The notes under the pieces: generated by a model
Database searches by the model: none
Told to the model about the DNA's origin: nothing
What the model saw: the letters and a program-made list of their open reading frames with translations, nothing else
Part shown: in pieces, positions 2,242 through 7,972 of the stretch
Layout: every line of letters begins with the position of its first letter
Position numbering within the stretch: the stretch's first letter is position 1
Translations under genes and position numbers: made by a program
NCBI GenBank assembly: GCA_903938735.1
Contig: CAJAEK010000123.1
Coordinates: 1 to 32,611, forward strand
Source of the DNA: an uncultured Actinomycetes bacterium
Lineage (GTDB): Bacteria; Actinomycetota; Actinomycetes; Nanopelagicales; Nanopelagicaceae
DNA: 32,611 nt
Reading direction: 5' to 3'

Positions 2242-3621
2242 TTACTTCTCTGCTGAAACCTTCTTCTTTGCAGCGACGTAATAAATTACAAAGGCAAGCA
2301 CGAAGCCAACCAAGAATGCGATATCGCCAATTCCTGGATGGTGCTTAACAAAGTAACCGGAATAATACGACTGGTTCGAGAAGCCCCAGATTGCAATAAA
2401 CCCTGCAACCACAAAGGCAATTGGACCAGCAATATTCTCTCGCTTGGCGAAGAGCAGCTTCTCAATGGATGCGCCCTTGCGGATGACCTTGTCGGCAATC
2501 AAAACGCCTAGCCATGGCCCAATCCAGTAGGACATAACCAACAAGAAGTTCTCGTAGTTGTTCGCTGGATTGTTGAGCGCAGCATGAGCCAAGAGGAATC
2601 CGAGAATTCCAAAAATGATTGCAGAGATTGCACGACGCTGCTTACTACCGACCTTGAAGCCGATTGCCAAGAACGACAGTGCGCCTGAATAAATGTTCAG
2701 CACGTTTGCGCAGATTGATCCGCCGACAATGCCGAGCAAGACAAGTTTGCCAAGCCATGAAGGCATCAAGTGTGTGAAGTCACCGGTTGGGTTGGTATTC
2801 GCACCATAGCCGTGCATGCCAGCTGTTACAGCGGCTGCTCCGACAATCTGAAGAATGGTTGAGGAAACGAAGATTCCAAAACCAGCTGCACGACCCGCTG
2901 CCTTGCCATCTGTTGATGCAGGTAGGTAACGAGCGAAGTCAGATGAGAATGGGTTCCAGCCGGCGGCGTATCCGTAGACAGCGCCAACCAACAACAAGAA
3001 TCCACCAGGGGTATGGCCACCAGCGTGTGCGCTGAGGTGTCCCTTGCTCAGTGCGTAGATTGCTGCGGCACCGAAGACGACTACGAGATATGGGAAGAGG
3101 TACTTCTCCACATTCTGGACCAAGTTGTGACCGATGAATGCGATCGCAACCTGAATCAACACAACGATGATGAGTGCGGTGAGCACCTTCATCTTGGTGA
3201 GGTCTGCAAGCGCGAACGCGCCGGAGACGCTATTCACTGCGAACCAACCGATACCTGCTGCGCCAGCGTTCAACACTGAAGGAATGATGTTGCCGAGCTT
3301 GCCGAAGGCAGAGCGGCTTACGATCATTTGTGGGACGCCGTACTTAGGGCCGTCTTGAGTTAGGACATACTGACCGGCTGCGCCGAGTGCGTTACCGATA
3401 ACAATGCCGAGAACGGCTTGCCAGAAAGTAAGGCCGAAAAATAGAACGCCGAGAGCGCCAACATAAATTGTTGCGAACTCAAGGTTAGGGCTGGTCCAGG
3501 TCGCAAATAGATTGCGCGCCTTGCCGTGTCGATCTTTTGAGGGAATTGATTCGATACCGCCTGGCTCTACCGCGAGAACCTTCTCGCCGTATTCGCCTTC
3601 TCTCATCTCTAGGTTAGACAT
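2242..3621 (-). CDS. NCS1-family cytosine/purine permease
   Basis: 459 aa polytopic protein; WTSPNLEFATIYVGALGV and GPKYGVPQMIVSRSAFGKLGN resemble Fcy2-like NCS1 members; AGGAG-like RBS upstream of ATG. Confidence 0.85.
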   Translation of the reverse strand: MSNLEMREGEYGEKVLAVEPGGIESIPSKDRHGKARNLFATWTSPNLEFATIYVGALGVLFFGLTFWQAVLGIVIGNALGAAGQYVLTQDGPKYGVPQMIVSRSAFGKLGNIIPSVLNAGAAGIGWFAVNSVSGAFALADLTKMKVLTALIIVVLIQVAIAFIGHNLVQNVEKYLFPYLVVVFGAAAIYALSKGHLSAHAGGHTPGGFLLLVGAVYGYAAGWNPFSSDFARYLPASTDGKAAGRAAGFGIFVSSTILQIVGAAAVTAGMHGYGANTNPTGDFTHLMPSWLGKLVLLGIVGGSICANVLNIYSGALSFLAIGFKVGSKQRRAISAIIFGILGFLLAHAALNNPANNYENFLLVMSYWIGPWLGVLIADKVIRKGASIEKLLFAKRENIAGPIAFVVAGFIAIWGFSNQSYYSGYFVKHHPGIGDIAFLVGFVLAFVIYYVAAKKKVSAEK

Positions 3622-3640
3622 ATCTCTCCTGATTTTGTTA

Positions 3641-3662
3641 TCGGGGGTGTTTGCGACCCCGA
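3641..3662 (-). promoter_or_regulatory. Hairpin in the 5' leader of the NCS1 permease
   Basis: TCGGGG(G)T...ACCCCGA inverted repeat with a one-nt bulge, just upstream of the AGGAGAG RBS on the minus strand. Confidence 0.4.
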
Positions 3663-3772
3663 GTGAAATGACGGCTCACTGGGCCGAGGGAATGCAAGGA
3701 AAATACCCGTCTCCCGCCACTACTCAGGGGTTCGCCACGCGGGTGAGAGCTCGCCCCGCGCCATCCCCCGTC

Positions 3773-3784: not shown

Positions 3785-4687
3785 ATGAACGAACTCGACG
3801 CGGCCGGCATAACCGACCCAGCCCTTCGAGCCTCGTACGCCGAGTGCAAGCGACTGAATTCGCTCCACGGCAAGACCTATTACTTGGCCACCTTGCTACT
3901 CCCGCCCGCCAAGCGACCACACGTCCATGCCCTCTACGGCTTTGCGCGTTACGCCGATGAAATCGTGGACGATTTGGAGTCAACTCTGACTCAGGAAGAG
4001 AAAGCAGAAGCGCTTTCGAGTTGGGGAAATGGCGTCCTTGCTGACCTGCGTGCTGGCGTTAGCCATGACCATATCGGTGCGGCGCTGGTCGATACCGTCA
4101 ATCGATTTGATATTCCAATCGCGCACTTCGAGGCTTTCTTGCACTCCATGACCATGGATTTAACGGTGAGCGAGTATCAGAGCTACGGCGACCTGATGGA
4201 GTACGTCTACGGCTCCGCCTCAGTAATCGGTCTGCAGATGGTTCCCATCTTGGGGGTACTTGATCCAGCGGCGTATGCAGCTGCCGAAAAATTAGGAACT
4301 GCCTTTCAATTAGCGAACTTCATTCGCGATGTGGGAGAAGATTTAGAACGCGGTCGGGTCTATCTTCCGATTGACGAATTAACCGCCGCTGGCGTCACAT
4401 CAGAGATGTTGGAAGAACGTGTACTGACTCCTGAAATTCGTAACGCGCTGAAGTTTCAGATTGAGCGTGTTCGTCGATTGCAACGCGAAGCCACGCCGGG
4501 TATCCAGATGCTCGCCGCAGAAAGTCGCGCCTGCATCGAAGCTGCGGGTGAGCTGTATTGCGGCATCGTCGATGAGGTCGAAAAAATCGATTACCAAATC
4601 TTCGAGAAGCGGGCCGTCACTTCTACATGGCGCCGCATCAAGGTTGCTTTGCCTGCGTTGATCAGAGCGCGCAGAGCGCGTAGGTAG
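3785..4687 (+). CDS. crtB: Phytoene/squalene synthase
   Basis: YGFARYADEIVDDL and FQLANFIRDVGEDLERGRVYLP, the two Asp-rich motifs of phytoene synthase. Confidence 0.93.
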   Translation: MNELDAAGITDPALRASYAECKRLNSLHGKTYYLATLLLPPAKRPHVHALYGFARYADEIVDDLESTLTQEEKAEALSSWGNGVLADLRAGVSHDHIGAALVDTVNRFDIPIAHFEAFLHSMTMDLTVSEYQSYGDLMEYVYGSASVIGLQMVPILGVLDPAAYAAAEKLGTAFQLANFIRDVGEDLERGRVYLPIDELTAAGVTSEMLEERVLTPEIRNALKFQIERVRRLQREATPGIQMLAAESRACIEAAGELYCGIVDEVEKIDYQIFEKRAVTSTWRRIKVALPALIRARRARR

Positions 4688-4703
4688 CAAATAACTGCTA
4701 GCC

Positions 4704-4795
4704 TTTTTACCAACGGGAGCCGAGGAATTGGCTGAGAGGATCCGATAGCCGGATCGACCGTAGGACCAGTTCGGTAATGCGAATTGGAAAGGGGT
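4704..4795 (+). promoter_or_regulatory. TPP riboswitch (THI element)
   Basis: CGGGAGCC...GGCTGAGAGG (THI-box CUGAGA core at 4732-4737), then GACCGTAGGACCAGTTCGGTAATGCGAATTGG; P1 pairing CCAA (4710-4713) with TTGG (4784-4787). Confidence 0.9.
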
Positions 4796-4800
4796 TCATC

Positions 4801-5430
4801 ATGCATATCCATTTAATGGCGGTTTTTTTCACGGCGTGGGGTTATCAACTCACCTACCTGGAGTTTGTTGCATTCGTTACATCAGTTGTGGGCGTTGCTC
4901 TCGGCGTATTCGGACCTCGTCAAACCTGGCCGTGGTGGAATATCTCGTCACTTCTTTACGCAGGACTCTTCTATGAGCAGAAGTACTACGCGAGCGCTGC
5001 CTTGCAATTCGTCTTTGTGGCGGGCGGAATCTGGGGTTGGTTTGGCTGGGGTCCCAAGGGCGCAAAGCCTGCACGACTAACCGCGAAGGCGAAGGCAGGC
5101 TGGGGTGCACTGATGCTGATCGGCTGGTTTGCGCTTTATCCAGTGCTCAAGAAAATTGGTGCGGCAGCTTCTCTTACAGATGCATTTGGCTTTGTCGGCA
5201 GCTGTATTGCACAAGTGCTGATGGTGGTCGAGAAATACGAAAGCTGGCCGCTCTGGTTTGTCGTGGATGGCGTCTACACCTATCAGTTCTGGCACGGCGG
5301 CAGCTATCTAACCGCTATCTTGTACTTCATCTTCGTTCTCATCGCCGTTGGCGGTTGGAAGCGCTGGTTACGTGAATCCCGAGCCGAGGCGGTTATTGCA
5401 CATCATGCAGATTCCAGTAAATCTTCTTGA
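4801..5430 (+). CDS. pnuT: PnuC/PnuT-family vitamin (probably thiamine) transporter
   Basis: Trp-rich polytopic protein (FGPRQTWPWWNISSLLYAGLFYEQKYYASAALQFVFVAGGIWGWFGW) typical of PnuC family; downstream of TPP riboswitch. Start at 4801; the ORF-track start at 4777 lies inside the aptamer. Confidence 0.87.
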   Translation: MHIHLMAVFFTAWGYQLTYLEFVAFVTSVVGVALGVFGPRQTWPWWNISSLLYAGLFYEQKYYASAALQFVFVAGGIWGWFGWGPKGAKPARLTAKAKAGWGALMLIGWFALYPVLKKIGAAASLTDAFGFVGSCIAQVLMVVEKYESWPLWFVVDGVYTYQFWHGGSYLTAILYFIFVLIAVGGWKRWLRESRAEAVIAHHADSSKSS

Positions 5431-5968
5431 CCATATTCAGAACGCAGAAGCCAAGTGTGGCCCGGCAGTTCTGATCACGATCGATGGACCAGCAGGTGCG
5501 GGCAAGACCACGCTTGCTGAAACACTTCGCGAAAAATTAGCCGAGCTTGGGCGTTCCGTCACCGTGCTCCATATGGATGATGCCTATGAAGGATGGGAGA
5601 ATGCGCTCGGCGGTTCACTTTCATCCCGATTGCGCAACGAAATCGTGCCGGCGCTGGCAAGCGGCAAGGCATATACCTTTCCGCGCTTTGACTGGCTCAT
5701 AAATAAATGGGACGAACCCACTCGTCATGAACCAACCGACGTCATCATTCTCGAAGGTGTCGGCGCGGGTCAGCGAGCGACTCGATCGGTCACATCCCTC
5801 GCTATCTGGATTGATATCTCGCCCAAAGAGGGAATGAATCGCGTTTTAGAACGCGACGGTTTTGCTATCGAACGCGAGATGAAGCACTTTAAAAAGCAGG
5901 AACTCGTTCACTTTGCGGCCGAGGGAACGGCGAGCGCTGCGGATTACTCGCTCGATGGTGCGTCCTAG
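5405..5968 (+). CDS. P-loop kinase (uridine-kinase-like AAA NTPase)
   Basis: Walker A GPAGAGKTT, HMDDAYEGW, DVIILEGVGAG; probable ATG at 5405 overlaps the end of pnuT by 26 nt. Confidence 0.8.
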   Translation: MQIPVNLLDHIQNAEAKCGPAVLITIDGPAGAGKTTLAETLREKLAELGRSVTVLHMDDAYEGWENALGGSLSSRLRNEIVPALASGKAYTFPRFDWLINKWDEPTRHEPTDVIILEGVGAGQRATRSVTSLAIWIDISPKEGMNRVLERDGFAIEREMKHFKKQELVHFAAEGTASAADYSLDGAS

Positions 5969-6004: not shown

Positions 6005-7972
6005 GTGTCAGACCTATCGGGCCAACTCATTGATGGCCGCTACCAATTGCAGCATCTCATTGCCGCTGGTGGCATGGCGAGCATTTACGCCGCTTTTGAC
6101 ACTCGACTCGATCGCAAGGTCGCGGTCAAAATTATGCACCCACACCTCGCCAACGACGAAGAGTTCGTCAATAGATTTATCCGGGAAGCTAAGGCGACTG
6201 CATCACTGTCGCATCCCAATATCGTTGCGATTCAGGATCAGGGATGGAACGAAGGTGGAGCGCCAGCGATCTTCTTGGTGATGGAATTTATCGAGGGCTT
6301 CACCTTGCGCGAATTACTTCATGAGCAAGGCGCGCTCGCTGCGGATGTGGCGCTTCGATATCTCGCACCGGTCGTCAGCGCTTTGGTCGCGGCCCACAAA
6401 CAAGGAATCATCCATCGCGATTTAAAACCTGAAAATATTTTGATTGCCAAAGACGGAAGAGTAAAGATTGCGGACTTTGGCTTGGCCCGCGGCGCAAGCC
6501 TCGGCACGACCATGACCGTCGAGTCCAGCGTTGTGCTGGGCAGCGTCTCGTACCTCGCGCCTGAACAGGTGCAGCGTGGTGTAAGCGATGCACGAAGTGA
6601 TATTTACTCCTTAGGCATCATGCTCTTTGAAATGGTGGTCGGAAAGCGTCCTTTCGATGGCGACTCCCCTATTGCCATTGCCTATAAGCACGTCAACGAA
6701 CGTGTTCCTGCACCGTCCACAATCAAAGCGGGGTTGCCGGTATTGCTGGACGAGATAGTTCTCAAGGCAACTGATCCAAATCCAGATAAGCGATATAGAG
6801 ATGCCGCGGCAATGGAGTTGGATATTCAAAAGCTACAACAAGAACTTGATCCAGCTCGACGTCAGCTCACGCTTGAACTAGATGTTGCGCCGCTGATCGC
6901 TAAACCAACGAAGAGCGCGAAGAAAAAGTCGCAATCAGAAAAGCTCGCACGACCTGGACTTCGATTTGGATCGGTCCCGGTCACGAATCCAATTACGAGA
7001 ACCTCAACCGCATCAGCAGCCCGAGAGAGTGAACCCATGCGCGAAGCAACAAACTCCACCGCCGAAATCCGACGCCGCAAACTCTCGCGCCGGGTAAAGC
7101 GTAATCGATTTGTAGCCGCGGTTATTCTTGTTGGCGCGCTTGGCTTTGGTTGGTATCACTTTTTAGGCGCAGGTAGCGGTGTCAGCATCCCATCGGTCGC
7201 CGGGTTATCTCAGGCGCAAGCAAATTCAATGTTGCAGCCGCTCGGTCTAAGCGCCGACGTTGCGGCAACTGTGCCCAGTGAAGAAATTCCGGCTGGTGTC
7301 ATCATCTCCTCTTCGCCGGGCGGTGGTGGTCACGTCAAAAAAGGCGGCACCGTTCACCTCACTATCTCGCAAGGTCCAGCGCAGATTGCAGTCCCGTTGC
7401 TTGTCGGACTATCGCCAGCCGATGCCAACAAGGCAATTGCAGCTGCTGGTCTACAAATCGGAACAACGACGCCGGCCTATAGCGAGACCGTGACGGCAGG
7501 TGCCGTGATTGACGGAGTACCAGCAGCGGGCACGCAAGTAAGGAAAAATACCCAAATTGATTTGTTGGTGAGCCAAGGCCCAGCTCCTGCAGGCGCACAG
7601 TCGTACATCGGTCTTTCAAGCGATCAGGCGTTGAACGAACTAACCGCCGCCGGCTACAAAGTACTCAGCAAGTACGGGTACAGCGACACCATCCCAGCTG
7701 GTTCAGTCATCACACAATCACCGCCCGCCAATACTCCACTCCCTAAGGGTTCGAACATCACGATTGTGATTTCGTCCGGCAGCGCAAAGGCTGCGGTCCC
7801 CAACGTTCTTAAGCAATCTACAAACTCCGCGACCGCTAACTTGGAGAATGCCGGCTTTGTCGTGAAGGTGAAGAGCTCGGGCACGCGCAAGAGCAAGGTA
7901 GTTGTCGCAATCTCTCCCAAGGCGGGAACCAAACTCAAGCGTGGCGGGACGGTAACAATCACCGTCAGATAG
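6005..7972 (+). CDS. Ser/Thr protein kinase with four PASTA repeats (PknB/PknL-type)
   Basis: HRDLKPENI, DFGLARG, YLAPEQ; single TM segment (FVAAVILVGALGFGWYHFL); four extracellular PASTA-like repeats. Confidence 0.95.
   Translation: MSDLSGQLIDGRYQLQHLIAAGGMASIYAAFDTRLDRKVAVKIMHPHLANDEEFVNRFIREAKATASLSHPNIVAIQDQGWNEGGAPAIFLVMEFIEGFTLRELLHEQGALAADVALRYLAPVVSALVAAHKQGIIHRDLKPENILIAKDGRVKIADFGLARGASLGTTMTVESSVVLGSVSYLAPEQVQRGVSDARSDIYSLGIMLFEMVVGKRPFDGDSPIAIAYKHVNERVPAPSTIKAGLPVLLDEIVLKATDPNPDKRYRDAAAMELDIQKLQQELDPARRQLTLELDVAPLIAKPTKSAKKKSQSEKLARPGLRFGSVPVTNPITRTSTASAARESEPMREATNSTAEIRRRKLSRRVKRNRFVAAVILVGALGFGWYHFLGAGSGVSIPSVAGLSQAQANSMLQPLGLSADVAATVPSEEIPAGVIISSSPGGGGHVKKGGTVHLTISQGPAQIAVPLLVGLSPADANKAIAAAGLQIGTTTPAYSETVTAGAVIDGVPAAGTQVRKNTQIDLLVSQGPAPAGAQSYIGLSSDQALNELTAAGYKVLSKYGYSDTIPAGSVITQSPPANTPLPKGSNITIVISSGSAKAAVPNVLKQSTNSATANLENAGFVVKVKSSGTRKSKVVVAISPKAGTKLKRGGTVTITVR

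Follow-up and report, generated by a model that had tools for sequence, protein, structure and literature searches.

A TPP riboswitch-controlled operon pairs a PnuT-family transporter with a candidate thiamine kinase in an acI-like actinobacterium

Introduction

Actinobacteria of the acI lineage, which reportedly outnumber all other bacteria in most freshwater lakes, need thiamine, and the accessible sections of Kang et al. (2017, PMC5301498) describe them as thiamine auxotrophs that miss nearly all enzymes of de novo synthesis and salvage and have no recognisable salvage enzyme. Which enzyme, then, phosphorylates the vitamin B1 that these bacteria import, and could it be the P-loop kinase encoded directly behind a putative thiamine transporter? 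We addressed this question for a window of 32,611 nucleotides, which is contig C123 of a 1.28 Mb assembly (85% complete) of a streamlined Nanopelagicales-type (acI-like) actinobacterium; the named relatives of the locus come from freshwater actinobacterial and Nanopelagicales MAGs. The features of the locus, all on the plus strand, are as follows.

3785..4687 (+), phytoene synthase gene (crtB-like; psy), conserved flank of the thiamine slot on its left side, outside the function of the operon (conserved synteny)
4703..4806 (+), TPP riboswitch aptamer (RF00059), 41.9 bits, with covariation in 14 relatives
4790..4794 (+), AGGGG, probable Shine-Dalgarno sequence of pnuT that also forms the 3' strand of stem P1 in the aptamer (read from the sequence and the cmscan structure line)
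4801..5430 (+), pnuT, putative PnuC/PnuT-family thiamine transporter (PF04973; TPP aptamer upstream here and in relatives)
5405..5430 (+), overlap of pnuT (stop at 5430) and the kinase gene, exactly 26 nt (sequence)
5405..5968 (+), P-loop kinase with a uridine-kinase-like fold (PRK06547-like), proposed thiamine kinase (profile searches, alignment, linkage, co-occurrence, structural model)
6005..7972 (+), gene for a PknB-like Ser/Thr kinase with PASTA repeats, conserved flank of the thiamine slot on its right side, outside the function of the operon (conserved synteny)

Comparative genomics points to the P-loop kinase as the best candidate for the missing enzyme. We interpret pnuT and the kinase gene as a two-gene thiamine-salvage operon in which the kinase would convert thiamine to thiamine monophosphate (TMP), and assign to this reading, drawn from sequence comparison, a probability of about 0.75.

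Results

A TPP riboswitch precedes pnuT

A default Rfam scan of the window lists no TPP riboswitch because the aptamer scores below the Rfam gathering score of 54.3, which is a curated threshold rather than a biological feature. The covariance-model search with a lowered threshold yielded E-values of 1.8e-6 for the 1.4 kb searched and 3.8e-7 for the whole genome, where this aptamer is the sole TPP match. The RF00059 model is matched at full length (1-105), and the aptamer contains both invariant blocks, CUGAGA and GGUAAUGCG. Across 14 relatives, changes on both sides were detected in 8 of the 27 aptamer pairs, 89% of the cells pair, helix P3 pairs in 100% of the cells, and the covariation score was reached by none of 500 shuffles. 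The lowered threshold and the covariation settled the presence of the riboswitch that the gathering-level scan had missed: the aptamer, with its conserved core and covarying helices, is real notwithstanding its score, in agreement with the preliminary description of this DNA, which had placed a TPP riboswitch before pnuT. All pnuT aptamers detected in the family also score below the gathering threshold.

The mechanical open reading frame of pnuT begins at 4777, within the aptamer, and the actual start is likely the ATG at 4801, six bases after AGGGG. Because the 3' strand of P1 is located at this distance from the start codon, TPP binding probably masks the ribosome site of pnuT directly, a regulatory mechanism that we infer from the sequence. 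An upstream promoter scan found no sigma-70-like site. PnuT belongs to the NMN_transporter/PnuC family (PF04973, E = 6.6e-34), and its putative substrate, thiamine, is suggested by the riboswitch and by the literature on PnuT. The kinase gene extends from the ATG at 5405 to the stop at 5968, with homologues aligning from the methionine at 5405; the 26-nt overlap with pnuT reported initially was thus confirmed, and translational coupling of the two genes at the overlap is probable.

Further upstream in the window, a weak PreQ1-I riboswitch-like match (3623-3666, minus strand; 24.5 bits against a gathering score of 39) lies directly before an NCS1 permease gene of the cytosine/purine/thiamine family (2242-3621, minus strand). 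The genes for this permease in L087, L088 and L090 gave no such match upstream.

The kinase gene is linked to thiamine import

The kinase is present in 54 of the 61 family genomes. The pairing with pnuT noted in the preliminary description recurs throughout this set: 47 of the 54 kinase genes immediately follow pnuT in the same orientation, with a match-to-match gap of -23 to +103 nt, and such an adjacency is not due to chance. In two further genomes, contig ends separate the two genes. Strict filters placed a TPP aptamer directly upstream of pnuT in 38 of 50 genomes, and permissive ones raised this number to at least 41. In another Nanopelagicales genome (L111), a TPP-pnuT-kinase arrangement (aptamer of 26.5 bits, E = 0.002) is flanked by a carboxypeptidase-like gene on one side and an SDR-kgd pair on the other; the pairing of pnuT with the kinase gene thus occurs at two unrelated loci. 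In the related L110, the kinase gene is found alone at the corresponding locus. A tRNA gene adjoins the kinase gene at this second locus (L110:4714-4786, L111:4087-4159) and may explain the mobility of the neighbouring genes.

Five genomes that encode the kinase lack PnuT (G005, G029, G037, G046 and G057). In all five, the kinase gene stays at the old locus, and a TPP riboswitch elsewhere in the genome precedes a ThiB homologue (L103, L104, L105, L164, L170). Three of the ThiB proteins were compared with TIGR01254 (cut-off 93) and gave 198-239 bits, the remaining ones were detected by tblastn, and a ThiP-type permease adjoins ThiB in four of the five genomes, the ThiB gene of G046 being at a contig edge. 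Given that all PnuT-less kinase genomes have a TPP-controlled ThiB(P), the kinase goes with thiamine import generally and not with PnuT in particular.

Across the family, the evolutionary rate of the kinase is about three times that of PnuT (median end branch 0.65 vs 0.20). Such divergence is unusual for an essential, specific enzyme and counts against a thiamine kinase.

Many relatives encode a distant second PnuC-like protein (about 30% identity; for example, G058:C1:40593, G033:C20:104884 and G014:C136:2202), which may transport riboflavin or nicotinamide riboside.

The kinase has a predicted uridine-kinase-like fold

The uridine, pantothenate and phosphoribulokinase superfamily phosphorylates hydroxyls of small molecules. 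Matches of the kinase in Pfam and NCBIfam are generic P-loop ones (PRK/uridine kinase, AAA_18, MeaB); the best family match is PRK06547/NF005115, annotated as 'hypothetical protein', at 97.9 bits, below the family cut-off of 173 bits. The P-loop, the HMDDxYxGW motif, W97, EGVG and RDG are conserved across the kinase family, in which Y61, W64 and W97 vary little or not at all. An AlphaFold2 model (pLDDT 95.5) most closely matches uridine-cytidine kinases in the PDB (E = 6e-10, TM 0.6-0.7), followed by phosphoribulokinases and pantothenate kinases, and predicts a uridine-kinase-like P-loop fold. The kinase matches neither the APH/choline kinase domain in Pfam, which represents the fold of ThiK, nor the TPK domains (TIGR01378, Pfam TPK) of ThiN; these results, along with the P-loop fold, uphold the earlier proposal that the kinase is unrelated to both. 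A plasmid protein search with the kinase returned only distant homologues.

The closest solved folds, uridine-cytidine kinases, would suit a nucleoside kinase that acts on uridine and cytidine or on nicotinamide riboside and whose place in the locus is incidental; nicotinamide riboside is the classical cargo of PnuC-type transporters, and the matches of the kinase profile extend to nicotinamide riboside kinase 1 (E = 1.8e-6). However, the kinase scores 38.5 bits against Udk (TIGR00235), far below the cut-off of 220 bits, the kinase profile has a gap where uridine kinases carry the nucleoside-binding NxDHPDAFD stretch, and a second protein with a better Udk score is encoded in many genomes of the same genus. 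A nucleoside kinase would also leave unexplained the TPP control, the transporter swap and the replacement of a thiamine operon described below, and we consider this explanation unlikely. A canonical Udk scoring over the cut-off was not found in 60 genomes.

The kinase would fill a single gap in the thiamine pathway

ThiE and ThiC are absent from nearly all family genomes, including the single-contig, 99-100% complete G027, G035, G041, G043, G052 and G054, and ThiL (TMP kinase) scores over the cut-off in nearly all of them; ThiL was not found in the 85% complete assembly that contains the window. A canonical thiN elsewhere in the genome, which the preliminary description had named as an observation that would speak against the kinase, did not turn up, as no ThiN over the cut-off was detected in this genome or in 100 relatives. 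The pathway has exactly one hole: imported thiamine reaches ThiL only if something makes TMP. An HMP or thiazole kinase was considered and rejected because ThiE, needed for using either product, is absent.

The linkage to pnuT, the transporter swap and the lack of ThiN in the family would equally suit a thiamine diphosphokinase, a non-homologous counterpart of ThiN that makes TPP in one step. Against this stands the retention of ThiL, useless without TMP, across a streamlined ThiE-less family, and the nearest folds are those of monophosphokinases; a diphosphokinase is thus quite improbable. Because ThiL is useful only if TMP is made, its retention narrows the original suggestion of a thiamine kinase or diphosphokinase to a candidate thiamine monophosphokinase. 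Proteins of the APH fold, which is that of E. coli ThiK, are likewise encoded in nearly all relatives, and one of them might be the actual thiamine kinase or a second one. Loose APH-family matches were obtained in 59 of 60 genomes, the exception being G007; some of them, those in G033 and G034, were very weak.

At the order level, a true ThiE is encoded in 7 of 251 genomes, and the kinase is present in 235 of the 244 ThiE-less ones, the nine without it being 70-86% complete. Among the 108 good-quality genomes of the order, all 103 that lack ThiE encode the kinase, and only three have no kinase, all of them with ThiE. Of the seven genomes with ThiE, five, which belong to genera g6 and g15, lack the kinase, and two (G029 and G127) keep it. 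The naive p of 5e-5 overstates this anticorrelation of ThiE and the kinase because the losses in g6 and g15 represent one or two evolutionary events.

The operon occupies an old thiamine locus

In g6 and g15, the slot between psy and pknB holds thiE facing TPP-thiO-thiG and no kinase gene (L167, L168, L197, L199, L201), and the same arrangement, again without the kinase, occupies the corresponding carotenoid-pknB slot in the outgroup families f2 and f14 (L204-L206). The slot is therefore an old thiamine locus in which pnuT and the kinase gene took the place of genes for synthesis. Genomes of g6 have another TPP riboswitch, located before the gene of a CytX-like HMP transporter. That the kinase works with PknB or the carotenoid genes, pnuT being merely inserted upstream, is very improbable: psy and pknB do flank the kinase gene in nearly every family genome, even in those without pnuT, but the kinase-less slots of g6, g15, f2 and f14 imply that these neighbours do not need the kinase, and at the second locus (L110, L111) its gene has neither of them.

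As the same slots hold thiE, thiO and thiG, synteny of psy and pknB alone was also rejected as the reason for the conserved position.

Homologues outside the order

Outside the order, homologues share about 24-37% identity with the kinase and are encoded away from thiamine genes. The preliminary description had counted such a location against a role in thiamine metabolism; the objection stands outside the order and fails within it, where the kinase gene is on TPP-pnuT or coexists with TPP-thiB. The Cellulomonadaceae homologue is encoded in an argG-argH-kinase-mpg-tyrS array, with the neighbours identified by reading translations. A homologue in the argH-tyrS region is seen in both Cellulomonadaceae and Jonesiaceae (L114, L116). 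In a class-level sample, the kinase is absent in 7 ThiE-less genomes and present in 11 genomes with ThiE and does not track ThiE loss. Generalisation beyond the order is uncertain because the outside homologues sit elsewhere and do not follow the loss of ThiE.

Discussion

The thiamine kinase candidate is supported by the presence of ThiL and the absence of ThiE and ThiN, by the retention of the kinase when ThiB(P) replaces PnuT and its loss where ThiE is kept, and by its position in a slot that elsewhere holds a thiamine synthesis operon. In the proposed scheme, the aptamer would leave the ribosome site of pnuT open when TPP is low, and PnuT would let thiamine into the cell. The P-loop kinase, translationally coupled to PnuT, would phosphorylate the thiamine hydroxyl, and the resulting TMP would trap the vitamin in the cell. 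ThiL, encoded elsewhere, would then turn TMP into TPP, which would close the riboswitch.

We further find it reasonably probable, taking the three parts jointly, that a third, non-homologous family of thiamine kinases, with a uridine-kinase-like P-loop fold, fills the gap in acI vitamin B1 salvage, that it entered an existing TPP-controlled slot through a swap of synthesis genes for uptake genes, and that the same family of 'hypothetical proteins' may provide many other Actinobacteria with a thiamine kinase that has gone unrecognised. If so, the kinase would close the acI thiamine pathway gap and represent another independent origin of thiamine kinase, a widespread 'hypothetical' family would receive a name, and vitamin B1 dependence in lake plankton would become predictable from one gene.

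Comparison with known systems

The kinase shares its fold, Walker A motif and catalytic Asp region with uridine-cytidine kinases (PF00485), from which it differs in the missing nucleoside-binding stretch and the score far below the Udk cut-off. PRK06547, matched over almost the whole length of the kinase but below the cut-off, is a family without an assigned function, and the literature searched, of which coverage is incomplete, yielded no assignment of a uridine-kinase-like protein as a thiamine kinase. The proposed reaction, thiamine + ATP -> TMP, feeding ThiL, is that of E. coli ThiK, whereas the fold and the sequence family differ, ThiK having the APH/choline-kinase fold and the kinase described here a P-loop.

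Gut Bacteroidetes pair pnuT with tnr3 (PMC5613172) and, as proposed here, combine a TPP riboswitch, PnuT and a downstream thiamine-phosphorylating enzyme in one operon; Tnr3, however, is a thiamine pyrophosphokinase, whereas the protein encoded here is an unrelated uridine-kinase-like one in a lineage with ThiL. The TPP riboswitch-pnuT arrangement of acI Actinobacteria was published in 2017 (Kang et al. 2017, PMC5301498), and both the arrangement and the lineage are the same as here; no kinase is named in the accessible sections of that paper, and the downstream kinase is the addition made by the present analysis.
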